Source of the DNA: Xiphophorus maculatus
Lineage: Eukaryota > Chordata > Actinopteri > Cyprinodontiformes > Poeciliidae
Direction of reading: 5' to 3'
Assembly (NCBI RefSeq): GCF_002775205.1
Contig: NC_036458.1
Span: forward strand, 24,454,368-24,518,367
Length of the DNA stretch: 64,000 nucleotides
Position numbers and translations under genes: made by a program. The notes below the pieces were generated by a model that was given only the letters and a program-made list of their open reading frames with translations, was not told the origin of the DNA and searched no databases. How positions within the stretch are numbered: the first letter of the stretch is position 1; every line of letters starts with the position of its first letter. This document shows positions 3,401 to 59,040 of this stretch, piece by piece.

Positions 3401-4527
3401 AGAGTTAACCCCTTTGAGCTTTTGGATCTATAAATCAGTCTGCAGCCAGGTTGTTCTAGAGGTTAAATAGATATTATTAGGGCTTAATTAGTAAAATGGC
3501 ACCAATTTTGCTTATTTCATAACTTTATAACCAGAGACCTTCTCTCCTCTGGTCTGTTTAACAGCTACAGTCTCAGATCAGCTCAGCCCTCCAAGACGGT
3601 CAGCAGCAGAAACAGAAACTTTTTACCTGTTGGGGAAAATATAGACTAGATTTGCTTCGCATTTCCCCGCATGATGGCAATGATACAGTAAGATCCAATT
3701 AGATTCTTAATTAATATGGGTTGTTGCTGTGTTGTTGTATGGAGTTTTTGTTCAATGTGCCCCTTTTTTAAATTTGAGCCCCTGCCCCTCCATAGGTCTC
3801 TGTACGGCCCTGAATCAGATCAATCAATCAGTCAAATTTTATTTGTATAGCCCATTTCAGCAGCAAGGCATTTCAAAGTGCTTTACATCATATCAAACAC
3901 AGAAACACAAAGCAACATAGAATCAACAATCAAAACACGACATTAATTCAGGTTCCATCATAAAATTTGTAATTGATTACATTTCAAATACAATCCTAAA
4001 CAGGTGGGTTTTTAGTGGAGTTTGCATCCATAGAAGGTTTACCTGTTACACTCCTACTGTGTTATATGGAACAAAATACCTGTTGCTATTTTTATTCCCA
4101 CTCACGCTCACAATCACACAGTTTAAAACGATGTAAACAGCATTTTAATGGGCTTCTGGCACAAGGCTCCATACACCTCTTTCATGGAATTTCAAGCAGA
4201 GACTCCATCGTCCCTCACTTATTTTTTTGTGCACTTCTATGGTACCTGTTAGTGTCTAAAATTTACAGATCTGTTTTACAAGCAGAAATGAACCTGAAGC
4301 AGCTTTGTCCTCCATCATTTTGTTTCATATCAGATTTTCAGGCGTCCCAGAAACACAGAACAAATATTCCGGCTCGGGTCTTTGGTATTCTCATCATAAT
4401 ACAGGTATGATAGTCAAGTATTCATTCTTTTTCTCTCTGCCTTCTTAAATCCAAACATAAGTAGTTTAGACTTCAACACATATACTTCTGGATTTTGATA
4501 ACTGCTGTGTGTAAATGATTTACATTA

Positions 4528-14420: not shown

Positions 14421-14528
14421 GTCCATGCCTGGAGGGGCTGGGTGATGGATCTGATAAGAGTCTCTCATCGTCGGCTGTGTGTATAAAACTCCAGCAGCCT
14501 CTCGGCTCCACAGAGCTGCATCTCTGCC
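14421..14528 (+). promoter_or_regulatory. Promoter and 5' UTR of protease-like gene 1
   Basis: A TATAAA box lies at 14483-14488, about 43 bp upstream of the ATG. The likely start site is therefore near 14512 and the 5' UTR is short. The whole segment 14421-14598 is repeated without a mismatch at 19961-20138 in front of the second gene. Confidence 0.75.
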
Positions 14529-16671
14529 ATGGCTGTGGGTAAACTGCTCGCTCTGCTGGTTCTGCTCCAGTGCTCTGCAGGTGAGAAACAAGATCATTCA
14601 TTGTAAGGGTTCCCTCACTGCCAACATGTTGACAACCTCACAAACTGATTATTTGTGAGGTTGATATTATAAATATCTTTTCATTATTTAGTCAGTATCT
14701 CAGGATGTTGTTGGCCACCTTACTGTTGTTTCTTGTGTTGTGTCTTTAGGTGCACACTGACTTTTTGTCTACACCAAAATGTTGAATTCCTTATTCTGAG
14801 GTGACACTACTGTGTATTTCTACTTTATTTATTTCTTTTAGCTTTGATGGGAGCTGGAGTGAGGAGCTCCATCATTGGTGGGGGGGACGCCCCAAAAGGC
14901 AGGTGGCCCGGTTTGGTCTACCTTGACATCAAGACAGACAGTGGGGAGAGAAAGTGGCACTGCAGTGGTTCAATTCTCAATCAGAAGTGGATCATGACTG
15001 CTGGGCGCTGCTGGGATGAGTAAGTCTGGATGGAATTATTGAGTATTTTCTAATAATCTTCTACAATTATACACCTCTAGTGTAAATGTCTGAACCGTTA
15101 TGTTAATCAGAGCCTTTGACAAAATACATTTCAATCAGTTAACATAGTTGATTAGAACGGGTAGAAAACTGATACTAAGAAAATTAGCAGTTGTGCTAAC
15201 TCTGGCATATTTACATCAATGCTTATTGTTGACATGTTCATTAATATGTATTGTCCTAATTTAAATAAATAAAATGAAATGAAATACCGACAGGACAAGG
15301 CTATTAAGAATGATTCATAATATTCATAAATGAATATTTAAAATGTAATTAAACTCACCCATGGTTTTAAGAGACAGGGAACCCCACAAGGTTTTGAGGG
15401 TCTGGCTTTGTGTCTTTACTAGATATTTTTTGTGTGTGGTTTCGGGAACTGATGGTTTGAAGGGACACACCTGACCCCGCTTCCCGCTTTCTGACCGTCA
15501 CTTCTAACCCTCCCGCGCTAAGACTGCGCGAGGGTTAAAATTATATTAATAACATATAAACAGCAGACAGGTCGTTCAGTTGGTGTTATTTCTGCATTCG
15601 CTATCACAGAGATACCTTAAATGTATTTTAATTTATTGATGTAATTAAGTGAAACATTTTTACCTTACAACTGGTTGTAGTCATGGTGTACGCACAAACA
15701 GCAACATCATCTGCTTTGTTGTTTTATGTAACCTGAGTTATGTAACTCAAAATGTGTAGATTTGATTTTTCTCAATGTCCTGGCAGCTAAAGTAAGAGAG
15801 ATCTGATCGTCTAGTTTTGTCAAGACAGAAAAAGGCAGTAAAGGAGAGTGAACGGATTCTTCAGATGAATAGTGTCATAAAGTGTTTGAGAGTTAAAAAG
15901 TAAAAAAAGAGGTAGTAATCTGATCTCTTTTGTCTGTTCTTGTGTGTTTCAGTGAACTGAGGACCAGGTGGGATCGAACAGGAGTGTGGATCGGCACATA
16001 TGAGCTGGGCATGCCATCTGAACGTTACATGAATGTAGACCTTGTTGATCGTCTACCTGAGTTCAGGGCTGCTGGCAATGGCTTCGTCAATGACATCGCG
16101 CTGTTAAGGTTAAAATACCCTTTAGAGTTCTCTAAGAACGTTGCTCCAGTGGACTTACCCAATGATGATGACATCTTCGATTCTTCCTCTGAGTGTTGGA
16201 TCGCAGGCTGGGGTGATATTGGCAAAGGTGATTTTATTTTCCAATTGTCTATAGTGTAAAACCTACATAAGCAATGTTTTCAAAACATTTGCCATCAGAA
16301 AGGCTTTTTGAACCTTCCTATAATGAACTGTGTTTCGACATTAAAATCTACTTGAACAAACACTCATCCTTGACATGAAGGCTGCATGACTCTCTGTGTG
16401 TTTCCATCCAGTTCCTCTACCAGGAACAAAACCTCTTCAGGAGGTGCAGATTTCCATCTTGCCTCGGAAAGATTGTAAAGCCAAATATCCGACCATGACT
16501 GATACGATGTTGTGTGCAGGCGACCCTAAAGGGAAAAAGAACCCCTGTGACGTAAGTTTCAACATATATGTGAACTGAGATGATGTTCTATTTTAATATC
16601 TGTGGAAACGTTTGTGTATCAGAGCAAAAACTTTAACTCACATGAAGTTAGAACAAATCATGCCAAGGCAC

Positions 16672-16710
<39 letters not shown>

Positions 16711-17599
16711 GACACACACACACGCCGTCACACAAAATTGCATGAATACAGTCAGGTGAAAAGGAAATAAATATAAATAAACAACCAAAAGATGAATGCT
16801 TAACATAATCTAAAGTAAGAATAAATTAAGAACCAAATGCAAGAATAAAGTAAAAAAAGCAAGATGTAAGCAGAATATAAAGATAAACAAATGCATGGCC
16901 AAAATATGATATGGAAGAAATCCCTAAAAGCCCCAACAAGCCTTCACCATGACACCAGCAGTCCTAATTTAATCTCATACTTAATTTGATTTTCTAACGC
17001 TTTGTAAGAAAAAAGGCAGAAACTATTCAAATTTGTCTTTATTAGTATCACTTATATTACATTTGAACAATTAATTACCAAAAAAAACAACCTGGTGTGG
17101 TGAGTTTTCAGGGTATAGCTGAATTAAAACATTGTCCTGCCAGAAATCTGTTCATGCTTTCTTGTTACTTGTACCCAGTCAGACAAGCTCAGCTTTTCAT
17201 TCCTTGATTTCAATGCATCCAGGAACTCGGACTTGTCCCTAACATAAAAATAAAACAATCCATTTTGTCTCAGCTCCCTCTCAACATGTGTGCTTATGTA
17301 CAACAACTACAATTTAATTACCACATAGTTCCAGAGCATTGTGCAATTTGATTGTGTAGGCAGGCTCAGGGAATAAAACCTAACTTTAAGTTAAATCTGC
17401 TTCTCCTCAGGGTGACTACGGCGACCCGCTCATGTGCCGCACAGCCAGAGGCTTTGTGCAGGTGGGAATCATGAGTTATGGGAGTCCTAATGGTTGTGAG
17501 GTTGCCGGCTTTCCTAGCATTTACACACGAGTCTCCAGTTTTATGGGTTACATCAAAGATCGCATGAAGCAACTTGATGAAGAATTAGCCTCTGACTAA
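14529..17599 (+). CDS. Secreted trypsin-fold pseudoprotease 1 (S1 family, catalytic His and Ser lost)
   Basis: Five exons, 14529-14580, 14842-15019, 15953-16227, 16412-16551 and 17411-17599, join in phase to 277 codons. Residues 1-17 are a signal peptide. The S1 fold follows, with IIGGGDAP at residue 28, HCSGSIL, the catalytic-Asp motif NDIALL (Asp124), ECWIAGWG and MLCAGD. The His57 site reads TAGRC (Arg73), not TAAHC. The Ser195 site reads GDYGDP (Tyr218), not GDSGGP. Two of three triad residues are gone while every exon, splice site and most cysteines are intact, so this is a serine-protease homologue and not an obvious pseudogene. No Arg or Lys directly precedes IIGG (RSS-IIGG), so ordinary zymogen cleavage is doubtful. 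The S1 pocket position 189 appears to be Asn. The nearest recognisable relatives are mast-cell/tryptase-type S1 proteins; its role could be binding, decoy or regulation, and none is shown. Confidence 0.9.
16678..16725. repeat. (CA)n microsatellite
   Basis: About 20 CA units, with a few CAGA interruptions, in intron 4 of protease-like gene 1. Confidence 0.95.
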
Positions 17600-17731
17600 T
17601 GTTCCCAGAAGCCAGAGGAAGTGGGAGGTTCCCTAACCAGCAGAGTTGCTGCCTTTCTCAGCTTGTCTCCTTATCCACTCAACCCTTACTGCTCTCTCTC
17701 TCTCTCACTGTCAAACATTTAACCACATTGC

Positions 17732-17737
17732 ATTAAA
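17732..17737 (+). terminator. Poly(A) signal of protease-like gene 1
   Basis: ATTAAA lies 133 bp after the TAA stop and is followed by a TG-rich stretch. A second AATAAA lies at 17811. Confidence 0.6.
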
Positions 17738-18210
17738 GCTTTGAAGCATCACTCCTGGTGTCTGTTTGTGTTTATTTCATAAACTAAAATTGTCTGTAGC
17801 TCAATGAAAAAATAAAACATTAACCAGCTTAAAAATGAAAAATAAAGACTTCTCTAAACTAATAATTGTGCAATTATGCAACTTAGTGCTTGAATAACTA
17901 TCATTTTATTCATTACAATAGACCCTTGAGGTTGGGTTAGATTTATTTCAACTGTTATGCAACCATGTCCTCAGTCAGAGGCCTTTTCACATTAGTTGTA
18001 ACACAGTCAGCAACTGGAGATTCCTGTGCTGTCCACTTCTCTGACCGTATGCCAGTAATATTTGAGCTCTCCCTTACCTGACCGCCTATGACTTACTCTC
18101 TCTGATTAGTTCAACTTTCCTAGAAATTCTACACTTTTCTAGAACGTAGACAAATGTAAAGAGAGTCTTTGGTAAATTATCAGAAGACTTTTATACCAGC
18201 AAAAACAAAG

Positions 18211-18625
18211 TACAGTGGCTTGCAGAAGTATTCACACCTCTTGAACTTTTGCATATTTTGTCATATTGCAGAATGTTTTGCATTCTGAACAAAAAGTTTA
18301 ATTTTGCTCTGATCTGACCAGAGCTCCTTCTCCCACATGTTTACTGTGTCCAACTTGGCTTCTATCAAACTGCAAACAGGATTTCTTATGGTTTTTTTTC
18401 CCCAACAATGGCTTTCTCCTAGCAACTCTTCCATATAGAGCACATTTGTGCAGCGATGACTAACAGTTGTCCTGTGGACAGGTTCTGAGCAGGTTCCCCC
18501 TCTGAGCTGTGGATCATCTGGTCCAGAGTAACCTTGAGCCTCCTGGCTGCATCTCTGATCAGAGCTCTGCTTGTTCAGCTGAAGTTCAGGTGGACGGCCT
18601 CGTCTTGGGCTAACCTTAACATTTA
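18211..18625 (-). mobile_element. Tc1/mariner remnant between the two protease genes
   Basis: It begins at a TA target followed by CAGTGGCTTGCAGAAGTATT, a fish Tc1 terminus. The minus strand carries degraded transposase-like coding with an HRTTVSHR...VLYMEELLGESH stretch and a W.DQSKIKLF stretch, with frameshifts. It is non-functional. Confidence 0.65.
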
Positions 18626-19010
18626 ACACATTAAACTCAGTTCTGATTTAATGTGTTAAATTAGAACATAATTAAACACATAGCAATCTTTGGGCAGTCG
18701 GACCCCATAAAGTAAGATTTGTTTGGAAAATGGCCCCTACAGTGTATCAAATACAAAGTCACACTCACACTCCTATGTTCACAAGGACTATGTTGTGTAC
18801 AAATAGAAACATTTAAACTATTTAGAAAAATTTTAAAAAATTTTAAACATATTTTAAAAATAATAGACCACTGGCCTTTTGTCCAGCAGTCAACGTCTTG
18901 TATTCTTTTTCCCCCCATCATTTCCCTGGCCTCCTACAGTTCTCCTCATGTAACCGGCCTGACTTTTGTAATAGTTTATTTCTGTTCAACTTTGGATTTT
19001 TTATTTATTA

Positions 19011-19840
19011 GGCCCAAAGAGCAAAGCGCTGCGAAGGCGTATTGTATCTGTACTGTTTCTTATTATTACGATTCTGCGCATTTTTGGGGGCTTTATCATA
19101 TTCAAAAACTCACCAAACTTGGCGGATGCGTCTAGGCGGTTTAAAAATTTTGAATTTTAAGGTCGTCGCAAAAATCGCAAAAAAAAATGGCTCAACGGCG
19201 CCACCTAGCAATTTTCAGAAGACACAATGGTATGAACGTACTTCATTGTAGAGACATGAGAACTCACCAAGATGCTCAGAATGTACATTTAATGTTATAA
19301 GGCAAGTATCAGAGGAAGTCGGCCATTTTGGACTGAAGGTCCGATTTTGACCCCGATTTTGACGTTTACAGCCTTCGTATTTGATCGAACTCCTCCTAGG
19401 GATTTCGATTGATCGGCTTCAAACTCGGTCAGTCCGATCATAAGGCATGTCTGATTCAAAGTTATCAAAACGGTGAGTGTTTGAGCATGCTGAAGGGGGA
19501 TTACCAGGGGTCAAAGTTCACCTACTCCCCATGAAACATGAAACTGTTATATATCCTGCACAGAAACACACAGAGATACCAAACTTTCAGTTATTGATCA
19601 TCATTGAGTGTCCTAAAATATCCTACGGTCAAATGATGACATCACTTAGGCCACGCCCCCTGACAACAGGAAGTGTCATATTTTACTGTGAAGGGTCTAT
19701 AGCTTCTGCAGTGGCGAGCAGGCTGAGGCTCTGGAAACTGTGCGAGAGTTTCTGCGGTGGCTGGAACCCCCGCAGTGGCCAATAGGCCGCAGCGGCGCTT
19801 GGCTGCGAGGGCCGCATGAGGCTGCTCGCAGCTTTAATTC
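19011..19840 (+). mobile_element. Abundant teleost interspersed repeat (AAAGCGCTGCGAAGGC...CGCAGCTTTAATT)
   Basis: It starts near AAAGAGCAAAGCGCTGCGAA and ends at GCTCGCAGCTTTAATTC. Inside are the hallmark phrases ATTCTGCGCATTTTTGGGGG, AACTCACCAAACTTGGCGG, GGCGCCACCTAGCAA and GGCCACGCCCCCTGA. From general knowledge this is a high-copy fish repeat of unclear class. ORFs within it are not conserved coding. Its end lies 120 bp from the duplicated promoter of protease-like gene 2. Confidence 0.7.
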
Positions 19841-19960
19841 TTTTTGTATTTTTGTATGTTTGCATTTCATCTTTTTTTATTTATTTATTTTTATTAAATA
19901 TTTCAAAATATAACCGCTCTACATGTGGGTCCACTTTAAAAACACGCAACATGCCGCTCT

Positions 19961-20068
19961 GTCCATGCCTGGAGGGGCTGGGTGATGGATCTGATAAGAG
20001 TCTCTCATCGTCGGCTGTGTGTATAAAACTCCAGCAGCCTCTCGGCTCCACAGAGCTGCATCTCTGCC
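19961..20068 (+). promoter_or_regulatory. Promoter and 5' UTR of protease-like gene 2
   Basis: An exact copy of 14421-14528, with TATAAA at 20023-20028. The sequence immediately upstream is unrelated in the two genes, so the shared promoter block is only about 110 bp. Confidence 0.75.
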
Positions 20069-22619
20069 ATGGCTGTGGGTAAACTGCTCGCTCTGCTGGT
20101 TCTGCTCCAGTGCTCTGCAGGTGAGAAACAAGATCATTTTACATAGAACAAAATGAGTGATAACAAGAAGAGATATGCTGACTGTCCATGCCTCTTGTAT
20201 TCTGTAGATAACTTTATTATCATTTGAGTGCATACCGTCTGTGAATTAATATGGAATCCACAATATTTACACCAAAATGATAAACTAGATATTTTAGCCT
20301 CACAATAAGCATGAAGGTAAACACTACTGTGTATTTCTACTTTATTTATTTCTTTTAGCTTTGATGGGAGCTGGAGTGAGGAGCTCCATCATTGGTGGGG
20401 GGGACGCCCCAAAAGGCAGGTGGCCCGGTTTGGTCTACCTTGACATCACGACAGACAGTGGGGAGAGAAAGTGGCACTGCAGTGGTTCAATTCTCAATCA
20501 GAAGTGGATCATGACTGCTGGGCGCTGCTGGGATGAGTAAGTCTGGATGGAATTATTGAGTATTTTCTAATAATCTTTCACAATTATACACCTCTAGTGT
20601 AAATGTCTGAACTATTAATTTGCTTTATACAGAGTTAGTCAGAGGCTTTGACAAAAATACATTCCAGTCTCTTAATGTAGTTGATTGGGTAGAAAACTGA
20701 TACTTTCAAATACGATGAAAGTAGGTGTCAGGATCTGTGTTTTTCTGTGTATTTATTTAGAGTTGTCTGTGTCTCTGAGTCTCCGTGCTGTCCTGTCCTC
20801 CCCTTGATTGTTCCCTGGTGTCTCTCATTTCCTTGATTACCCTCTGTGTATTTAACCCCACCTGTGTTCCTTGTTCCTCGTCGGGTCCTTGTCAATGTGT
20901 CTGGTCCATGCATGTAGCCTGTTGCTCCAGTGCTGAGCCCTAGCCTTCTGCTCTACTGTGCTGCCAGGTTTTGTGGACTTTTGGACTTATTTAAGTATAT
21001 TTTCATCATTAAACTTCCATCAATCATCTCACCTGGGTCATCTGCGTCTTCCTCACGGGTTCCACCACAACAGTTCATGACAGTAGGAACTTATTGTACA
21101 AATATTAAACATAACATCTATAAACGAGGGAGATCTGATCGTCTCGTTTCGTCAAGCCAGATAAAGGCAGTAAAGGAGAGTGAACGGATTCTTTGAATAG
21201 TGTCAAAGTGTTTGAGGGTTGGGATTACAGGTAATCTGATCTCTTTTGTCTGTTCTTGTGTGTTTCAGTGAACTGAGGTCCAGGTGGGATCGAACAGGAG
21301 TGTGGATCGGCACATATAAGCTGGACATGCCATCTGAACGTTACATGGAAGTAAACCTCGTTGTTCGTAATCCTGAGTTCAGGGTTACTGGCAATGGCTT
21401 CATCAATGACATCGCGCTGATAAAGTTAAAAGACCCTTTAAAATTCTCTAAGAACGTTGCTCCAGTGAACTTACCCAAAGACGATGACATCTTCGATTCT
21501 TCCTCTGAGTGTTGGATCGCAGGCTGGTGGGGAAAAATCAATGGTAGAACATTTTTCACACTCATACTGCATAAATTTATACACACATACACAGACTAAG
21601 GGTGAACTTAATGTGTTACCACAATATATTGTGGTAGCATTGTGATGGTAATAAAAGTGACAATAAGATCTGTTTATTCTCTTTCAGGCAGCCTTATGGC
21701 TGTCACGGCGTGGCTCCTGAAAATCAAACCTTTTGAAATACATTTCTACAGGAGAGCAGCCACAAAACGAATTGTTATTTATATCACTAGACTGCAGAAA
21801 GTAACTTCATTTAATGATATTTTCGAATGAATTCATATTTATTGATACTTTAGTTGTGCAAACAGTGGAGAAACTAGTAAAACTAACAATCCTGACAACA
21901 TGGACAGTTTAAGAGGATTTTAAACATGACAATAAATTGGAATTCTTAGATAAATCTTAATAAGTCCATGAAATTTATTGTGATAAATGATTAGCAATGC
22001 GATAAATGCCCACCCCTGTCACGCACACATTATACTGTATAGGTGCATAATAATTGTATAGTAATAATCTGTATCCTCACCTGGACCTCTCTCTCTGCCC
22101 ATGTAGTCTGGGGTGAGAAATCAAACACTCTACAGGAGATGGAGGTTCGAATTGTGGGTCAGACTAGATGTGAAGCTACGTTTCCAGACCTGAGTGACAA
22201 CATGCTGTGTGCAGGCAGTCCTGCTGGAGGAAAATATTGCTGCAACGTGAGTTTCAACATTTCTATAAAAGCTAACATGCAGAACATCAGTTTAATCTGG
22301 TTTATTGTGAAAACATAAAACCATCTGCTAAAAACATGCAAACCCCCCCGCCCCCTCCCCTGCATTACTTTCAAGTTTCAGCCATTGTGCGACTCAGAAG
22401 CACACAAACAAACTAACATTATCACAGTGTGTCAACTTTCAGCATCCACCAGGAGACCATGGCGGCCCGCTCATGTGCCGAACAGCCGGCGGCTTTGTGC
22501 AGGTGGGAATCATGAGCTTTCACAGTCCGGATGATTGTCGTACCCCAGACCGCTTTGGAATCTACACTCAAGTCTTCAGTTATATGGACTTCATCATGAC
22601 ATACATTATGTTTGGCTAA
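20069..22619 (+). CDS. Secreted trypsin-fold pseudoprotease 2 (S1 family, catalytic His and Ser lost)
   Basis: Tandem paralogue of the gene at 14529. Exons 20069-20120, 20359-20536, 21269-21543, 22107-22246 and 22443-22619 join in phase to 273 codons. Exons 1-4 have exactly the same lengths as in gene 1. Exon 1 is identical and exon 2 differs at one base (Lys to Thr codon). Arg73 again replaces the catalytic His, Asp124 (NDIALI) is kept, and the Ser195 site reads GDHGGP (His221). Use of the acceptor at 22441-22442 adds three residues (HPP) before GDHGGP compared with gene 1. Exons 4 and 5 are strongly diverged, including the new segment starting VWGEKSN and a shorter C-terminus ending IMFG. 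It lacks the 3' UTR poly(A) signal of gene 1. Its 5' half looks homogenised with gene 1. Function unknown; secretion is inferred from the signal peptide. Confidence 0.87.
20726..21082. mobile_element. Solo LTR in intron 2 of protease-like gene 2
   Basis: The 357-bp segment begins TGTCAGGATCTG and ends TTCATGACA, with TGTCA/TGACA inverted termini. It is flanked on both sides by the 5-bp direct repeat GTAGG (20721-20725 and 21083-21087). It contains a TATTTAA box and an ATTAAA motif. These are the marks of a solo LTR left by recombination of a Gypsy-type retrotransposon. It is absent from the matching intron of gene 1. Confidence 0.88.
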
Positions 22620-29900: not shown

Positions 29901-32900
29901 GCACACGCGCACACACACACACACAATTTAGTTCCATGTGATTACAGTTTCAACAGCTCAACCTAATCAGTAAGACTTTAAGTTTCCGTTAGGAAGGGGA
30001 AAGCATGTAAAGACTTCATCCGTCCAGTGAGAATGAATGAAGCCCTACGTGTGATGCCACAGCTTGAAGAGGTGAGCCCGTATGTAGGACAGCGAGCAAG
30101 GAGGGTACTGCTTCACCACCTCCAGATATTCTTCTGCCATTTCCCACACTGGGGGGCTGCGGCCCTCAAACAGGGCCGGGTTATGGAGGTTCCCCTCTAC
30201 AGATAACACAAAGGCAGATGAAAGGTATGCAATAGTTCAGACACAGAGCACTCTATAACTGAACCTCATAGGACAAAGAGTTGAAGGAGAACTAACCTGC
30301 ACTCATGACCCCCTGCACTCCTGTCTCCTGAATGCAGCGCTCCACATCACTCAGATGATGGATATTCCCATTTGCAAACACTGGAATATTTACTGCTTTT
30401 CTGCAGAAGAAAATCCAAGTCAGAAATATTTCTTCTTATAACATTTTTATAGAAACACCAGAGAAAAAGGACAGCAGCTCACCTGACTGCCCTAATGTGC
30501 TCCCAACTAGCGATCCCCGTCATGGCTCCCTTCTGATCTTTGGTTCTGCCATGTACTGTCAGTAACTGGGACATTTACCAAACATCTCAGACTTTACCAC
30601 AATTTTAAAGCATTTTTTTAAATCAAGGTGCAACAGGTGGTGGAAACAGATCCTACCTGACATCCAGCTTTCTCCAGCATCTGAGCGTAGCGCACCGTTT
30701 TCTCGATCTCCTTGAAGACTCGGATCTTACAGGTGACCGGCACCGAGAGCTTTTCATTGGCTAAGCTGACTGTCGAAGTAAGGAGAAAGGTAGATCCTTA
30801 TAACTGCTGCTATTTAAATAAAGAGGATTTAGATACTGGTTTAATCATACAACTAAAGCTGCATGTTAATGTTAGAAACATAGAAAATGCTATTCGTTTA
30901 AAAAGCTACACACGAAATATGACAAAATCAGTAAAAACTCACCCATCCTCTCCAACAGCTCCCATTCATCTTGCAGAAAAACTCCATAGTGTCCTTAAAA
31001 TAATAACAATGTAACATTAGTTTGGGTCTTTTGTATTAGCTCTACTCTAGATAGTTATTCTACGTTCATGTACCTCTCTTAGCTATCATCTGTGGGCAGC
31101 CCAGATTGAGATCGATGGCGTCGCAGTAGTCCTGGGCCAGGGCAGCAGCCTGGAGGAACACCTCCGGGTCGTTGGCACAAAACTGGAACAAACATGACAG
31201 GACAACAATTTCACTCCAACACCACATGAGAAGCATTGTGTTTCAAAGTGATGTGTATGAGGCTCATTCTGCACAAACACTGGAGATTGTCACACACAGA
31301 TTTGTTCACATTTATTATTCAAGATTTATTTACAGTGTTGACAATTCATAGCTTTTATATGAACAAGATAAAGTGATTGGTCTTTGTACATGTTGATATC
31401 ATCATAATTTTTATTATTGTGCACCTTTTGATGACTGGATGTGATTGGTTCAGAACTACTTCCTGTCTAAGAGAGTTTCTAACCGCTGCAGTGTGTTTTT
31501 CTCCAGGTGTGTGAGACGATTACAGCATGATGGAGTTTGTTGTCTTAGTTTCTGGGAGTGACCCGTACTTCTCTCACACACTTCCAGCTATAGATGGGAC
31601 ATTTTTAGGAGAATTTTTAAAAATAATTTCTTATAAAAAAAGTTATTAACTGTTACCTAGCAGATGCAATGACCACTTTAATCAGTTTATAATGAGCTAA
31701 CAAATATAAATGTGTATTTATGAGTTGATTTCTCACTATAGTCTAATTATTTTGGTGAAGGTGGAGTAGTGGAACAATATTATCAGGAAACATAGTTATT
31801 TCAACATTTTAAATTCTGAACATTTAACTGAAATACATAAAATAATTTTAATCTCAGTTGTACTTTTTTCAGTAAAAACCTAAACAGCGGTCCAGTAGAA
31901 GAGCTCAGACACAAAGCCTTTATCATCAACTACATGGTTAAAACTAAAATATTGCAAGAGAAACATCAGCAGGGAACAGTTTGGTTCTGTGTCTCTCCAC
32001 ATGATTTTTGGACTTTAAATGGCTTAGTTAGTAAATTAATGTATGTGAAATCAAATAAGAACTATGCATGATACCCTTAAAGTTTCTGCTGAACAAAAAG
32101 TTTGATTGTTTAAACAAACAAATCTAATATGTCATGCCTTTTGGTTTTATGCCTTGACCACTGCACTCCTTCCTCTCATCCAGCAAAAAATAAGTAAAAA
32201 AAAAGAAAAAAGTTTTTTATATAAATTTAAAAAATATACACCCTTTAAGAAAGGCAACATCAATAACATTATTTTTGTTAGACATATTGTATATTTATTT
32301 ATATATGTGCTCAGTGTTTCCTGTTTTTATCATTTTAATATAACATTTATTTCCTGTAGTGATAAAAGTGAAAACAAGGAAGTTTTCCTGTTTGATCAGT
32401 GAAAGAAAGATTTTAATTAATATGCGATACTAAATAATGGCAAACTATATTTATGTAATATTTACAAAAGCTTTCAATAATAAGTCTAATTTATTTATTC
32501 ATAGGTCTGAAAAAGTAAGGAACGTGGTTTCCACAGTTTTAAAGAACCCATCACCAAACCAGCAGTCAGAGCCAAACATGCTGGAGCAGCTTTCAGGTTT
32601 TAAGAACCAAAAATCTGGAATAAGCTTCCTGTTGACTGTAGCAGTGCTCCCATCCTGAGCTCCTTAAAAATAATGGTAAAAACCTTTTTAATTGCGGTTT
32701 CCTATACTCTTAGCATTTTTTTTTTACTTTATTTTTAAACCTTTTCAATTTTAATCTGGTTGATATGTGTTTTCTTAATATATGTTAATTTGATCTTCTA
32801 TGTATAAGAACTTTGAGTTGCCATTGACTGAAAGGTGCTTTATAAATGAAGTTGCCTCGTCCCCTCACCTGCCCAGCTTTAGTTTCTAGTCATCATCTCA

Positions 32901-39565: not shown

Positions 39566-42500
39566 CTAAAGACAGGTTTCAGGACAAGCAGCCATGTCAC
39601 CATTAGCCTGCGGCTCCTTTAAGAACCTCTCCACCTCCTGTGAGTCCACTGCTACACTCTTTGGTCGGACATTGTCGTTATTCTTGATCTCATTGATCAC
39701 CTTCTTCTGCACCTTCTTCTCTGTCATTTGCTGCCCCTCTGCCCTGCTGCTGCGGCGACTGGTCTTATCATCTGCCAGTGTGACCGTCTCACCCGGACAG
39801 ACTGCCGGTTCACGGGGTTTATTTTTGATAAATAAGAAGTTGCAAGTAGCCAGAACCACTCCCGAGAGCACCACCTCACATCCTGCCAGCAGGAAGACGT
39901 ACATGTAGCTCTTGGTAGCGTCCAGAAGTCGCCCTGTGACAAAAAAAAGAACATAAAAAACAATGACAAGAAGAAATGTGAAGGTGCGCTACCATCGAGA
40001 TGGGGTTTGAGTTTATCATAAAAAATTTTTTTATTTTATTCATTTACAGTTCAAAATGATCATGTCACATGTTAATAAACATAAGTTTTGAATGAAAAGG
40101 AGTTTGAAAATCTTAGTCTACCCCTTCTCTTCAAAGTCACTTTACTACACCATGTCCCGCGGTTGCTCAAAGGTCACCCTACACCCTTTACCTGAACAAT
40201 ATTTTTCTTCCAACAGTTTGAGTTGCTCAACAATCTGTTTCCAAATCAGCAAGCTCTGAGGCGTTGGTCATCTCTGCTCTCCCTTTAGTTCCTCCTCTCC
40301 CTAAACTTTCACCGATTACCTCCAACTCAACATCAGTGATCTTCGATAGCAGCTACACATTTTACATCATCTCAAGTTCATCATCAAAATCACATATATA
40401 ACCTCTTTAGCTTCTGATTTAGCATTCATTTATAATATCATGATAACCATAACTTATTAGTTACACTTATCATAACCAAAGTTACAGTTGTTCATTCTTA
40501 CAAGTTTCTATTAATATAAGTATTTTGTTTTGGGTCTCATTCGATTACTCAACGTGTTTAGACTTCATTCTGTAAAACTTTCATGCATTGAAATAAGGAA
40601 TAGTCTCAACTACAACACACTCTCTGCCTGACTATGATTTATTATGATTAAATACAGAAAGAAATGGAAATAAAGCAAAGATTGCATGAGACAACACATA
40701 AAATACAACCTCACTGATTTTATTGAAGTTTGATTCATTTTAAATGTCACTTCATGTATTGTTACTGTTAAGCTAACAATACATGTCAGCATGGAACTTA
40801 TGGGATGACCTCGGGTTATCTTGACATATGTTATGATTATTATATTTTTCTGTTTTCTTCTTAATCATTTTATTTTGTCGTTGACATTTTATTTGTTCAA
40901 AAGAAATAAAGAATAAAGATTTCAAATCGTCCAATGTCCTGAAAGATTTGTCCAACTTTTAAAAATTTTTAACTCAAAAAACAAGGACGGCCTCTGCATG
41001 ACTGCCCCATCGCCCCGGCAACTGGGCTTAGCAAGTAGTTTAGGGGAAACCCTGTTCTAAAAAAACTTGCTTGCTTAGGCAAATATTAGAAATAACTGAC
41101 TGACCTGCACTTGGTGGTCCCACCAACACAGCAATAGCTTCCACCAGGAGGACAAGGCCAATTGCACTGGAGAATTTTTCAGTGCCAACTATTGCCATCA
41201 GCACCTCAAACTGCAGCGCGCCCACCATGCCGTAGGAGACCCCGAAGAAAATGCAGAAAACTACCAGAGATGCATAGTCGTTGGACTGGAAGAAATGTAA
41301 AAAAAAAAAAAAATCAGCTTACAGATCCTAAACTCTCTACATCAGTGAGCAGAAACTGTTCATTAGTAGTTCATGACCATCAAGTCTTCACCCACCTGTG
41401 AGCCAACCAGGTCAGCAGTCCCATTAAAGACCATTGCAAAGCTGAACAAATAGACACACCGAGGTCGCATCCATTTCAGTCCGGCAATCACACCGCAGGT
41501 TGGTCGAGCAAAAATATCGATGAAACCCAGGATGGTGAGCAGCAGGGCAGACTTGGTGTCCTCGTTCCCCAGCTCCTTGGCGTAACTCACAACAAACACA
41601 GGCGGCACAAACAAGCCCAGCACCATGATGGATGCTGCTACGGTGTAGATGACAAACCCCCTGTCTTTGAATACAGAGAAGTCCAGCAGCTTCTTTTTCT
41701 TCTTCTTTTCTTTCTTCTTGTCCTCCTGGTCGTGTTGCTGTTCCGCAGGCTTGGGATTCGGTAGGGGCTTCATGAGGGCCCCACACACACAGCAGTTCAA
41801 CAGAAGCCCACCGAGAATGAGGAAGCCTCCCCTCCATCCGTAATGGTCCTGAAGAAACTGACCGAGAGGCGAGAGGCCGCAGAGGAACACGGGGCTCCCA
41901 GCAGCAGAAAGCCCATTGGCCAGAGGACGCTTCCGGTTGAAGTACCGATTGAGCATGATGAGAGATGGCTGGAAGTTCAGAGCTAATCCCAGACCTTCAG
42001 CAAAGACGAGGACAAGAAATGTTTACGTGAAAAGGCAGAAATTTAAAGCTGCATCATGCAACTTTTACAAAAGTCTGCTTTTTACATATTTGTCTGTCAC
42101 ATGACAGCTGCTGGCTACTATTGACATCTGAAGAAATGCACCGCTCCCGGTCAAAAACAACCAATCAGAGCCAGGTGAAGGTGCTTAGCGCTGTCAATCA
42201 ACATCACGTATGCACTGCTAAATGTGCTAATGGTGCAGAATTCACCATTGCTTGCAGTGATTGTGAGTAGTGTGTACACAAGGGTGATTGACAGCACTTA
42301 GACCCTCCCCCTGGCTCTGATTGGTTGTTTCTGATGGAGCTCTGTATTTGTGCAGATGGCAGCAGGACCATAGGGAGAAGGCAGAGGAGCTCGATTTTTT
42401 TTCAGACTCATATTATACTGTCACCACACAGTGATAGTTACAAATATCTTTGTAAATGTTACACACTGCAGCTTTAAGATGCAACACTAGAATAATTTTA

Positions 42501-45500
42501 TATTTTTATGAAAACAAGACTTTTTAGAATCCATCTCATTCCTTTGCTTATATGCGCTATTGGACTATATCTAGACATATAGTCAGTTGCATAAAGGAAA
42601 ACAATGGATTCAAAAGTTTGTGCTTTAATGCAAATTTAGTCCGATTTAATTTAAAAGTCTTTATAAAATTACCTTCAATATCTGTCAATTAGTCATTTGA
42701 AAGATGCCAAGGACGGATTTTCAGCTTCACTGAAAAATGTGTATAAGAAAAAAGAAAACAAAAAAACAGTGAAACCTGTGATGACTCCAGTAGAGAGGTA
42801 GATGTGGACGATGCTGGTGGAGAAGGAAGCCAAGATCATTCCCAGGGAGGCGAAGAGGCCTCCCACCATCATCACAGGGCGGCAGCCGAAGCGGTTGACC
42901 ATCACGCTGCACAGTGGACCTGCACAGAGCAGAGCACAGACACTGTCTGGACACTCAAATACTATCAGCTGCTCCATTTAGGTACAATTCAGTATTTTGT
43001 CCTAAATATTTCACTCAATAATTTAAGAATAACGTTGCATTAATCTGGCAAAATAATAAATAAAAATGTCATAGTAAAAAGTACTTTATAGCTATGTAGG
43101 CCTGTCGCGATAAACGGTAAATCAATTAATCGTACGATAAATTAAGATTATCGATGTCATTCTAATTATCGGCATTATCGTCTCTTCCGGCCTTTTTCTC
43201 TTTCAGCTAATGACACCGAATGAAAAAAGGCTCAACTCCAGTGCTCTCCACTGACCCTCCCTTCCTCAGTTTACTTAGTGTAATGCCCAGCGCACACGAG
43301 CTGTCAGCCGATTTTCAAAACCTGACAGATCACACATTAGCCGACAGACATCCTAGGTATAACGGTTCGATCGGGTTCGTTCCTGCCGTGTGGTGTCCAA
43401 CAATGGGCACAAAATAATGGCTACAAGTCCAGTTAACTAATTTTAAAATCAGGCATTAATCAATACTTTACTACAATCTACCTGCAATGCATGTGGCTAG
43501 TGTCAGTCCTGACCGAATGAAAATCATTGATCATTGAGCAAAATTTGCTATCGTGACAGGCCTACCCAGCCCCATGATTTCCCCTCAGTTACCTCATTAG
43601 GTTGGATATTTATTGGCTTGGCTAAGTCTGTGTTTTGATTTCATAAAGTATAAATGGGGCTTAGCTAACATGGAAATTAATCATTAATAACGTAGTGATT
43701 CCTTTAAGGTACTGTATGTGTGAAACGTAAAACAGAAGGAGCTTATAAAGTCAAGCACTTCTGCGTGCTGAGAACAATTATCTCTTTAATTTGTCAAAAT
43801 TTGGCTCTTAAACTGGTGAAATGCTGATTCTTTGATGGGACTTTCCAAAATGTAAGTACAGATGCTGCTGCTGCTCTGACTGTGGTGCAATTCATATCCT
43901 GGCCATTAGGGGTCGCGGCCGTTTTGTGAGCAATGTTTTGTTTTGGGTGTAGCAGTGTAAATCGGCAGTAGCCATGTTTGGAGGCATTTTATGTAGTTTC
44001 TACAAGTGTGTGTCCATAATACAATATATTTTGTGTTTTAGAAAGATAATTTGTGTACTTTGTAACTCTGAACATTTTTTGTTTTCTCACTTTGTAAAAG
44101 CTATGGTTAAACTAAGCTAAGTTTTCGGTTAAACTAGTGATTTTTATCATGTTGCTATCGTTTACTTTAATTAACATTACAAGTAACTGAAACACAAGAC
44201 TGGAGTAATGGGAAGAATGTTACCCAATATGGCTTAGGCCTAGTAAAGCCTTTTGGGTCTAGAAGACAAGAATGTGACTAATATGTTATGTAGCCTGCTA
44301 ATATGATGTATACTTTGGATTGTAATTTGTATTATGTTTGTTTACTTTGTTTTGTAGAACCACACACACACTCAAACCCTCCTAAATCTACCAAAATTTA
44401 CCTAAATCTGCCAATTAAAGAACCAGACAATGTTCTGTCCTTGTCACTTTGGTAATTAAATTTCAATGACAATTTTATTTATTCTTAATAGGAAATGTTA
44501 AGCACAAAGTATTTTTCTTATAATTTTAATTTCATCGTGAGCAGAGTTATAGACATCTATAGACATTTTTGACTCAAACTCATGTATTTGTTTTATTGTA
44601 GAACATTTATGATTTTTTTTCTAGCAAGTTTTGGACTTTTCAAATTCAGAGATTTTGAAAAGTCATGTTTTGTTTTCTTGCATCCTGCATCCAGGCACTG
44701 TGACATTTTGATTCACCTTAGTTTCTTCTCTTATTTTGAAAAACTGAAGGCATGTGGAGACAGATTTGTTAGCACACCTGGTGAAGACGTGTAAAAAGTC
44801 ATTTTATGTGTTGGAATCAATCAGTCGTTTATTGCAGCAGCAACGTCTCACTCTGCACTTCAAAACCTTCTTACCAAGTATTTTTGTTTAGGTTCTAGTA
44901 CAAATTTCTTAGTTTTATCTTATTTCAAGTGCACCAACTTACAAGTAACAGAGGCGGGTCCTGACTCGGAGGCAGGTCCTGACTTGGAGCCCGGTACTGG
45001 CTCAAAGCCCGGTCCTGACTCTGAGACAGGTCCTGACTCTGAGACAGGTCCTGACTCGGAGCCCGGTACTGGCTCAAAGCCCGGTCCTGACTCGGAGCCC
45101 AGTCCTGACTCTGATACAGCTCCTAACTCTGAGACAGGTCCCGACTCTGAGGCAGGTCCCGACTCTGAGACAGGTCCCGACTCGGAGCCCGGTCCTGACT
45201 CGGAGGCAGGTCCTGACTCAAAGCCCGGTCCTGACTCGGAGCCCGGTCCCGACTCGGAGGCAGGCCCCGACTCTGAGACAGGTCCCGACTCTGAGGCAGG
45301 TCCTGACTCTGAGACAGGTCCTGACTCTGAGACAGGTCCTGACTCTGAGACAGGTCCTGACTCTGAGACAGGTCCTGACTCTGAGGCAGGTCCTGACTCT
45401 GAGACAGGTCCTGACTCTATCTTCTAACAGGTATAGGGCAAGTGTCAATGGGACCGCTACATCCAACCAGTTACTCAGCAAATCCACCACTTTAACCCAG

Positions 45501-48500
45501 AAGAGTTTGACCATTTTGTAGTCCAATATTCAGTGTAAAACTTTTCATCTGCTCCCCTGCAGGAATCCGCTGCTAATGAACTGTAGATGTTCGCTCGGTT
45601 CGGTTTGATCGCAGTCATGAGGTCATATTTATATATTTTTCTGTATATTTTACAAAGTGCTTCTCTGCCACCTAGTCATCCAGGCGAAGTCGTGAAAATG
45701 TATATTTTCTCATGGTGACTCACTAGTCTCAACACCACGCAGGCGCACAGCAGATCGGACAGCGACACCAATCGAGTCTATCAACGTCAGCTCAGGTCCT
45801 GGGAGTAGATCTAATTTTTAATACAGATTTTATAGTTAGAGGAACTTAAAACAAAAATTCTTTTACTACCTGGTCTTAATTTGAGATAATTTAATTTACT
45901 GCCTTTTACCCAGAAACCCTGTTACATGAGGCAAGAAGCTTCTGACTCACTGTAACAGTTTATAAACCATTGACCTACTTTAACACGCCTGATTAGCGCA
46001 CCATTCTGTCCTAACATGCAACAAATTTAATGCTGGCGGAAACACGAGCTAAAATGAAACAAAACCAAAATAAAAAAAAGAAACAAAGGAGTAAAGCGAT
46101 GTTGGGGAGGTCGGGGGATCTGTAAATGAAGTTTTTTATCCCCCTCGCCCCCTCTTATTATTTTCCTGTAAATACCTCCCCCCAACCCCCGTCCAACAGT
46201 CATTCCCCCCCCCCCCCCCCCCCCCAATCGTCCCCTGGTGGTCAAACCCAAAATTACAGATGTCTAGGCCTGTCGCGATGAACGATAAATCAATTAATCG
46301 TACAATAAATTAAAACGATCGACGTCATTCTAATTATCGGCATTATCGTCTCTTCCGACCTTTTTCTCTTTCAGCTAATGACACTGAATGAAAAAAGGCT
46401 CAACTCCAGTGCTCTCCACTGACCCTCCTTCCTCATTTCCTCAGTGTAAATCCCAGTGCACACTACACGGCTCATTTTCAAAACCTGACAGATCACACAT
46501 TAGCCGACAGAAATCCTAGATATAACGGTTCGATCGGGTTCGTTCCTGCGGTGTGGTGTCCAACAATGGGAACAAAATAATGGCTACAAGTCCAGTGAAC
46601 TAATTTTAAAACCAGGTATTAATCAATGCTTTACTACAGTCTACCTGCAATGCATGTGGCTAGTGTCAGCGTAAAGTCCTGACTGAATGAAAATCATTAG
46701 AACCTGTTTACGTCACGAAGAACAGCTGAAAAGTTACCGGGTTTATCAACTGCGGTAGCAATTTTGCTCCAACTCCTCCCCTTGTCATTTCTATATTCTT
46801 TGCATGTTGAATAAACATTAATGTTGTTTCCACGAATCATCTCCATGTCCGCTGGACTTCGTGTTGCTCCGCGTCAGCTGTTTGGGATTCCCCGATGTAA
46901 TTTCCCCTCAGAAAACACAGAGGAGAATCCGCGCTTTCTGATTGGCTACCTGTCACATTCAACAGGCTGCGTTAAGATCCCAGTCGGGAAAACCCCTGAT
47001 TTGGATCGGAGCGGCAACGATGATCTACCGTAACACACCACACAATCTTAGAAAGACCAACGTGCTAAGATTGTTGTAAGGGGAAAAATAGGATCAAAAA
47101 ATCATGTAGTGTGAATTATTGCATCAGGTAGTCGATGTGCCCATCTTCTCTATTTAAATCTAATTATTACTGAAGGGCAACATAATATACAGACTTCATA
47201 ATCTGCCCTCTTTTAGTTGAATGCAGTATTTATTTACACTTTGGCTTTATGTTGTTTAGTTTTTTTTTTTTTTACATTTTTTGTTAATGGAGACTGAGAA
47301 TCCATTTTATTTTTGTTTTTGGTTCTTTTGTTTATTTTGTTTATCAGTTCCAGTGTTTAGTGTTCTTTTGAAAATAAAGTGTATCTATCTTTGGCAAGAA
47401 ATCGCATGCGTTATTACATCATTTTCAGTGTAAAAAGGTCTTCAAACAATATTATCGTTTATCGCAATAATTTTTGAGACAATTAATCGTTCTGCAAAAT
47501 TTGCTATCGTGACAGGCCTATAGTTATGTTAGTCTTTTATTAAATTTGGAGAAAAAAAACTTTGGACTTAAGTAAAATAAATAGAGATGTGATACATCTC
47601 TATCCATGTTGAACAATTCACCAAATTCTACCAGCTTTAGAGACAGAGAGGTAGGGTTTCTGAACTAAACATTTTATTTCAAACTTCAGTATTCCTATGA
47701 ATGACAAGGAAATAAATGTAAGTTATCTAGATGTCTGTGACCATGACATACTTACTTTACACACAACTGAAATAGCTTTAAGTAGGTTAGTTTGCTGTCA
47801 ATTTATTGGGCTTTCTTTCGCACCATCACATGTGTAGCATTAGCTTGAAATGTCTTCTTATGGTCAAGTAACATGTTTGGGTGAGTGGTACATTCAGAAG
47901 CTCGGCCCTATCCCCAGATTTATGGTCAATCGTTGCCAGGGTAACAACTCAAGCCGCGTGGCCATCTGCTACAAGAAAACCAATATATACTGTATATGGA
48001 GGCTTGTTGCATGGATAGTGGTTCCCAAAGATATGATAACCACTGTGTGGTGTGGAACACTGAGCTGAGTTTTTGAATAATCTCCAGAACTTACAGTTCA
48101 TGCAAAATTCTTCAAATTACTCAAACACCAGTGGTCTTTACCATGACTGTTACAGGACAGACATTTTAGACAAAAACGGATAAACTTCAACAACTCACCA
48201 AATTTCACCAAGATTTACACATAGAATTTCATTCAATTTCTATAGAGCCAGTCACAAGAAATGTCACTCTAAAGCACTTTACCAGACATGCAGGTCTAAC
48301 TGCTGTGAACAAAAACGGATAGTGATGATGTGTAGGGTCTGAAAGGTGTATTGTGTGCACAGGAGCTTCATATTCATGAGCAAAACATCAGTTATTACAG
48401 TTACTGGTGTTCCCCTCCTGTTTCAATGTCATACAGCAGCACACCTCTGCTTCTGGAAGGAACGCTGCATCTCCCCAAACTACATTCTGCTATCATCAAT

Positions 48501-58084: not shown

Positions 58085-59040
58085 GTCTGTCTGTGAAAAC
58101 CTGCAGCTGATCCAGAACACTGCTGCTGGAGTTCTGAGTAAAACCAGGAAGATAGAGAACATCACCCAGTTCTACAGTCCTTCACTGAGAGAACAGACTT
58201 TAAGATACTGTTAGTTTATAGATCACTGAACAGTTTAGCACCACAACACATTAAAGATCTAGTGGTGTGGTATCAACCTTCCAGACCTCTCAGGTCTTCT
58301 GGTTCTGGTTCTGCTTTGCATCCAGAAGCATTCAGCTTTTATGCACCACAAATTTGGAACAAACTTCCAGAAAACTGTAAAACAGCTGAAACACTGAGTT
58401 CCTTTAAATGAAGGATAAAAACCCACCTAGTTAGAACTACTTTAGATTCATAATAACTGGAAGTTTGCTTAATACATTTTGAAGTATATTTGATTGATGA
58501 TTTTGATGATATGATGATATTTGATCAAATATAATCAAAATCAAATCAAATTTTATTTGTATAGCACATTTCAGCCACAAGGCATTTCAAAGTGCTTTAC
58601 ATCATATCAAACACAGAAACACAAAGCAACATAGAATCAACAATCAAAACACGACATTAATTCAGGTTCCATCATAAAATTTGTAATTGATTACGTTTCA
58701 AATACAATCCTAAACAAGTGGGTTTTTAGTGGAGTTTGCATCCATAGAAGGTCTACCTGTTACACTCCTACTGTGTTATATGGAACAAAATACCTGTTGC
58801 TATTTTTATTCCCACTCACTCTCACAATCACACAGTTTAAAACAATGTAAACAGCATTTTAATGGGCTTCTGGCACAAGGCTCCATACACCTCTTTCATG
58901 GAATTAATCAATAATGTTTATTGCTTGTTTCATACTAGGATACTGTATTGTGTTTTTTTTAAATGTAAATAACTTTAAATTGCCTGATTGCTGAAATGTG
59001 CTTCACAAATAAACTTGATTTGATTTGTTAATTTTTTAAA
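58085..59040 (+). mobile_element. LINE 3' region split by a second, inverted LINE tail
   Basis: The plus strand encodes the reverse-transcriptase C-terminus (LQLIQNTAAGVLSKTRK, then LREQTLRYC) through to AETLSSFK-type and KPTLF-type ends, with stops. The 3' UTR resumes after 58910 and ends TGCTTCACAAATAAACTTGA. Between them lies an opposite-orientation repeat (58535-58910). The family is the same as at 5735-6080. Confidence 0.75.
58535..58910 (-). repeat. LINE-tail-like repeat, copy B (matches 3819-4195)
   Basis: Nearly identical to copy A in cln3 intron 9. It starts at TCAAATCAAATTTTATTTGT, which on the minus strand resembles the tail of the LINE it interrupts. The ORF at 58729-58914 is part of this repeat. 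Confidence 0.75.

Follow-up and report, generated by a model that had tools for sequence, protein, structure and literature searches.

A tandem pair of trypsin-fold genes with altered active sites and mosaic identity in Xiphophorus maculatus

Introduction

Two tandem trypsin-fold genes of the fish Xiphophorus maculatus raise the question of whether a peptidase fold that has lost its catalytic residues is kept for something other than cutting or is on its way to decay. The genes lie on the forward strand of a 64,000-nucleotide stretch of contig NC_036458.1 (assembly GCF_002775205.1, positions 24,454,368 to 24,518,367), here called the window, at 14529-17599 (gene 1) and 20069-22619 (gene 2) in its own numbering. 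An earlier note on this DNA had described them as intact in frame and catalytically dead and had taken this as a sign of selection for a non-proteolytic role. The description was borne out: both frames are complete, and both proteins match Pfam Trypsin, carry TAGRC at the catalytic His site and Tyr or His at position 195, and keep Asp102. As to their fate, we give about an even chance to the reading that they are S1A peptidase genes related to tryptase and kallikrein, long duplicated in tandem, in which both copies lost catalysis, with gene 1 most likely a pseudoprotease and gene 2 more likely on the way to becoming a pseudogene.

Gene structure and altered active sites

Both genes were modelled with five exons. 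The spliced complete frames encode 277 (gene 1) and 273 (gene 2) amino acids. Exons 1 to 4 measure 52, 178, 275 and 140 bp in both genes, while exon 5 has 189 bp in gene 1 versus 177 bp in gene 2, and the intron phases are 1, 2, 1 and 0 in each. These phases and exon lengths follow the usual plan for simple trypsin-like genes. TATAAA stands 47 bp 5' of each ATG (14482 in gene 1, 20022 in gene 2), in line with the TATA promoters proposed earlier, and the proposed signal peptides also held in that the N termini are signal-like by sequence and hydrophobicity (mean Kyte-Doolittle value 2.45 over residues 6-16). The consensus splice sites described before were recovered in part: all eight introns have GT-AG borders, while the exon 5 acceptor of gene 2 is displaced by 10 nt and its exon 3 donor is the weakest of the set. 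The features are as follows.

14421-14598, forward: gene 1 block with TATA box, 5' leader and exon 1, running into intron 1 (self-BLAST, 178/178 against 19961-20138, 0 differences)
14529-14580, forward: gene 1 exon 1, signal-like peptide (spliced model; hydrophobic core)
14842-15019, forward: gene 1 exon 2, SSIIGG domain start and TAGRC (His57 to Arg)
15953-16227, forward: gene 1 exon 3, NDIAL (Asp102 retained)
16412-16551, forward: gene 1 exon 4, residues 189-190 Asn-Pro
17411-17599, forward: gene 1 exon 5, GDYGDP (Ser195 to Tyr, Gly197 to Asp) and stop; ATTAAA at 17732
19961-20138, forward: corresponding gene 2 block with TATA box, 5' leader and exon 1, running into intron 1; no difference from 14421-14598
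20069-20120, forward: gene 2 exon 1, signal-like peptide
20359-20536, forward: gene 2 exon 2, TAGRC; 1 difference from gene 1 in 178 bp
21269-21543, forward: gene 2 exon 3, NDIAL; donor weakest of eight
22107-22246, forward: gene 2 exon 4, residues 189-190 Tyr-Cys
22443-22619, forward: gene 2 exon 5, GDHGGP (Ser195 to His), Gly216 to His; AG 10 nt 5' of the ancestral acceptor, which adds His-Pro-Pro

The trypsin fold is well marked in both proteins. Pfam Trypsin (PF00089) was matched at 7.5e-44 (150.6 bits) by gene 1 and at 1.4e-42 (146.5 bits) by gene 2, with a cut-off of 20.6 bits. All eight conserved disulphide cysteines are present in each. In an alignment with three reference chains (one tryptase and two kallikreins), each protein retained 51 of the 88 reference-invariant positions, the cysteines among them.

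The active site is altered more widely than the earlier note stated. At residue 70, both proteins read TAGRC where TAAHC is expected for His57. Asp102 is retained within NDIAL at residue 123, and the Ser195 site reads GDYGDP in gene 1 (Tyr, codon TAC) and GDHGGP in gene 2 (His, codon CAT). In place of the triad of an active S1A peptidase, the pair carries Arg57, Asp102 and Tyr195 or His195. Gene 1 is further changed to Asn189, Pro190, Asp197 and Ser226, and gene 2 to Tyr189, Cys190, His216 and Phe225 with a three-residue insertion before Gly193; positions 189, 190, 197, 216, 225 and 226 follow the chymotrypsin standard. The S1 pocket of an active S1A peptidase (189, 190, 216, 226) is not intact in either gene. 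The zymogen site reads VRSS-IIGG in both, with Ser as P1 and Arg three residues before Ile16, and lacks the basic residue directly before residue 16 that normal activation requires. Asp194 is retained in both, and its usual partner would stay unreleased if the zymogen were not cleaved. With changes at His57, at Ser195, at residue 189 and at P1 of the activation site, both proteins should be without ordinary peptidase activity. Each combines a trypsin fold and the loss of at least one triad residue with an open frame, as serine-protease homologues do, gene 2 solely by way of the upstream acceptor. The mature proteins are acidic with a calculated isoelectric point (pI) of 5.24 for gene 1 and 5.61 for gene 2. 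Expression, secretion and folding of the proteins are predicted, as is any binding function.

Relatives and the derived state of the loss

Among proteins of solved structure, gene 1 was matched best by human tryptase alpha/beta-1 (7e-34) and gene 2 by plasma kallikrein (1.6e-35). The 704-Mb assembly (101 contigs) was searched with both proteins and the best candidates were scored. Gene 1 gave 49 listed matches and gene 2 gave 45. Seven in each list were the pair itself, and the other 42 and 38, respectively, were 27-49% identical. Among the matches listed, the pair was therefore found to be the only close members in this genome. Neither search recovered the other copy's exon 4 or gave exon 1 a row of its own, so short or diverged exons can escape. 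One scan each of a genome-contig and a viral-contig collection found no relatives.

The sites were also compared with 34 loci of this genome, selected from its 180 Trypsin matches; six of the 34 are window flanks only, and the de-duplication of sites was approximate. His was found at 31 of 32 aligned His sites, the exception being an apparent misalignment across an intron, and Ser at 30 of 34 aligned Ser sites. L007 (GNDGSP) and L008 (GDAGGA) are two of the four non-Ser sites, the others being a gap and an apparent misalignment. The His count does not include L008 (TAGR), where the alignment ends before the site. The triad loss in the pair is read as derived because most of the sampled loci retain the triad. 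As a separate observation, L007 (C24:13956186-13956731) is an S1A gene with TAAHC and the changed Ser195 site, which sits in a run of coagulation-factor-like genes on C24.

Other exons restoring TAAHC and GDSGGP, which would have overturned the earlier description, were found in the genomic sequence of neither the window nor the flanks, and the listed genome matches held no closer exons. Outside both genes, tblastn matches in the window had expectation values (E) of 3.7 or worse at a cut-off of 10, and 20 shuffled copies of protein 1 gave best matches of E 0.06-15. Six 10-kb flanking stretches (L009-L014; 40 kb upstream and 20 kb downstream) yielded a single match with E<=1, in L010 (E 0.30). 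Hidden triad-restoring exons in the window or flanks were rejected on these values. A third relic copy at 31043-31102 was dismissed as well, since its E of 8 is within the range of the shuffled proteins.

Mosaic identity and history of the pair

Identity between the genes is strongly uneven. The block with promoter and exon 1 is identical at 178 of 178 bp and exon 2 at 177 of 178, with near-identity extending past exon 2 by about 35 bp on the left and about 80 bp on the right. Between these virtually identical blocks, intron 1 is diverged (14598-14804 against 20138-20321), its interior being about 55-68% alike. The interior of intron 2 is about 37-63% alike; its end (15764-15943) is 78-96% alike and runs on into exon 3, the first 259 bp of which diverge by 8.5%. 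With this divergence, a 356-bp stretch would show at most one difference with a probability of about 6e-13. Synonymous divergence (dS) is 1.6 in exon 4 and 0.64 in exon 5, so both are old. In the whole-region alignment, gene 1 exon 4 falls wrongly opposite gene 2 intron 3, and figures from it between exon 3 and exon 5 were not used.

The simplest reading of this mosaic is an old duplication, after which short stretches at exons 1 and 2 underwent gene conversion, with an earlier exchange or a younger block in the region of exon 3. Gene conversion is the inferred cause of the pattern. It bears directly on the shared His57 change. TAGRC is present in both genes as described, and because exon 2 is identical at 177 of 178 positions, it is not evidence for two independent events; an independent double loss of His57 as an argument for selection was rejected for the same reason. 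His57 was probably lost once, and the loss spread by duplication or gene conversion. The different replacements at Ser195 had likewise been advanced as a sign of selection, a point that is not supported. TAC and CAT are close neighbours, so Tyr versus His is no proof of separate losses, and an ancestor bearing Tyr195 would be as economical as two separate losses of Ser195.

Selection, and probable decay in gene 2

Exon 3 is the youngest informative part of the pair. It showed five synonymous and 20 nonsynonymous differences and a ratio of nonsynonymous to synonymous divergence (dN/dS) of 1.14 over 89 of 91 codons, two at a gap being dropped, and no purifying selection was visible. A synonymous count this low has a chance of 0.003 at a ratio of 0.3, 0.02 at 0.4 and 0.07 at 0.5, so that a ratio of 0.4 or less is unlikely, and ratios up to about 3 remain compatible (chance 0.06). 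Exons 4-5 gave a dN/dS of 0.45 (Fisher P 0.0016; 102 of 109 gene 1 codons), and 115 random substitutions, counted without insertions or deletions, would leave them free of stops with a chance of 0.044. Two sequences are too few to decide between relaxed and retained constraint.

Gene 2 bears several defects. Its ancestral exon 5 acceptor reads CAGGAGAC and has lost one G compared with gene 1, where CAG is followed by GGNGAC. Splicing at this ancestral site (22453) would shift the frame, which then runs for 20 residues to a stop. Only the upstream AG at 22443, 10 nt away, keeps the frame open, and it has the poorest pyrimidine tract of all eight acceptors (9/15). Of the eight donors, that of exon 3 pairs most weakly with U1 (-5.0 kcal/mol), yet it falls among the top 10% of 800 random GT sites. 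Neither AATAAA nor ATTAAA occurs up to 570 bp 3' of the stop; the first ATTAAA is at 23191, and the variants AGTAAA and TATAAA are closer. Gene 1 has ATTAAA 133 bp 3' of its stop. Because of the lost acceptor base, the weak splice signals and the missing nearby canonical poly-A signal, gene 2 is judged more likely to be decaying than kept.

Weighing of the explanations

The account that we favour at about even chance would run as follows. An old tandem S1A pair would have been homogenised by gene conversion, in an upstream block with exon 1 and then in exon 2, and catalysis would have been lost in both copies. The product of gene 1 would be a secreted, acidic (pI 5.2) protein with four disulphides, trypsin-shaped, non-cutting and not normally activatable, and would act by binding as a serine-protease homologue or pseudoprotease. 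Gene 2 would more likely be turning into a pseudogene whose 5' half conversion has kept renewing. Gene 1 as a secreted pseudoprotease is plausible. In favour of the account stand the complete spliced frames, the Pfam matches, the retained cysteines beside the changed active-site positions, the mosaic identity, the ratio of 0.45 and the stop-free frames in exons 4-5, the lack of other close members among the genome matches listed, and the derived state of the loss. Several results weigh against this account. In exon 3 the ratio shows nothing of constraint acting after the last exchange, and the open frame of this exon is uninformative, as a stop would be missing by chance with P 0.32. The constraint on exons 4-5 may predate the loss of catalysis. 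The lost G at the gene 2 acceptor and the lack of a nearby canonical poly-A signal count in the same direction. No close active paralogue was found among the genome matches listed, where a diverged active relative could have escaped.

That both genes are young pseudogenes, in which drift killed catalysis, the frames are not yet broken and conversion copied a dead exon 2, is the strongest rival and, at somewhat worse than even, a serious one. It would account for the exon 3 ratio of about 1.1, for an exon 3 frame that survives as expected by chance, for active-site decay that differs in each copy, and for the acceptor shift with its lost base and the missing poly-A signal in gene 2. It sits poorly with the ratio of 0.45 in exons 4-5, the equal lengths of exons 1-4, the full set of cysteines in both proteins and the identity of the TATA-bearing upstream block. 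The proposal of the earlier note, that both genes are retained as selected non-proteolytic genes, appears improbable. Complete frames and signal-like peptides in both genes speak for it, as does an exon 5 of gene 2 that stays in frame through the upstream AG, a splice that would add just three residues beside the changed oxyanion region. Use of the AG at 22443, with the weakest pyrimidine tract of eight acceptors, is only predicted, however, and exon 3 shows no constraint. The changed triad and pocket and the kept fold markers thus agree with that proposal, while the exon 3 ratio and the gene 2 defects do not; its selection argument is weakened by the shared His loss, the ratio of about 1.1 and the undatable constraint on exons 4-5, and selection for a new function in the pair is unproven. 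Very little weight is given to wrong gene models with other exons restoring the triad or to identical blocks that are an assembly artefact. The 178 identical bases amid dissimilar flanks are an unusual pattern; the window holds no His- or Ser-motif exon elsewhere, the flanks gave the one match in L010, and no closer exons occur among the whole-genome matches listed.

Neighbourhood of the genes

Pfam was scanned with 84 of the 169 listed open frames of the window. CLN3, the major facilitator superfamily and dihydrouridine synthase were among the matches, and Trypsin was not in the ten families tallied from these 84 frames. The CLN3-like frame lies at 637-1197 and the major-facilitator frame at 41366-42022, both on the reverse strand; the latter resembles a monocarboxylate transporter. 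About 26 copies of the 18-bp unit GGTCCTGACTCTGAGACA occur at 44957-45418 within long open frames on both strands (44795-45521), which may be a repeat-coding exon. An inverted repeat at 33436-33671/33866-34101 has 236-bp arms that are 98% identical, 194 bp apart and each partly self-complementary, and looks like a foldback element. Dispersed repeats were found at 3819-4191 and 58534-58905 (97% identical) and at 43086-43528 and 46254-46698 (90%).

Comparison with known inactive homologues

Inactive trypsin homologues are common in insects, and the well-known vertebrate ones, haptoglobin and azurocidin, are few. Inactive S1A homologues are a recognised class, and this pair is a further case within it. 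Searches of one open-access library on teleost tryptases, pseudoproteases, serine-protease homologues and gene conversion listed no work on the pair. Mast-cell tryptase and plasma kallikrein are the best relatives with solved structures and share the protease-domain core, but the three reference chains carry Asp189, His57 and Ser195, all three of which are replaced in the pair.

Haptoglobin and azurocidin, cited earlier as parallels, fit the pair poorly. The haptoglobin beta chain resembles the pair in having a trypsin fold without catalysis. In contrast to it, the best matches of genes 1 and 2 are tryptase and plasma kallikrein; Cys58 is retained in both, and neither gene model contains alpha-chain exons. 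Haptoglobin was absent from the best 60 of 553 solved-protein matches of gene 1 and the best 60 of 189 of gene 2. The haptoglobin-like gene of this genome is L008 on C4 (C4:20399957-20400445 and an upstream exon), with haptoglobin as its best solved-protein match, WVLTAGRNLF and GDAGGA and no Ser195; haptoglobin membership of the pair was rejected on these grounds. L008, which belongs with a known binding protein, shares TAGR at the His57 site with the pair, apparently reached on a different branch because the matched stretches are just 29-34% identical. Mature azurocidin is strongly basic, and membership of the pair was rejected at a mature pI of 5.24 and 5.61. Azurocidin is an inactive homologue in a protease gene family, according to PMC4646688 and PMC7914634, and the former reports it from some placental mammals and as absent from fish.

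The insect serine-protease homologues are another parallel. In Tenebrio, 125 of 269 S1A sequences were proposed as such in PMC11172050, and they resemble the pair in trypsin fold, signal peptide and the replacement of at least one triad residue. They differ in that, in the passages considered of PMC11172050, His57 is most often replaced by Gln, and the residues listed for 195 include Tyr and lack His, whereas the vertebrate pair has H57R with S195Y or S195H.

Significance

The exon-sized exchange seen here warns against treating motif losses shared by tandem genes as separate events. A wider proposal is rather doubtful: that this is a wholly non-catalytic vertebrate S1A subfamily, represented in this genome by a tandem pair alone and kept as secreted binders with a conserved fold, a freely changing active-site surface and a promoter and exons 1-2 homogenised by conversion. 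A subfamily whose close copies found in the genome are all dead yet open would lend itself well to the question of whether selection acts on the fold alone.

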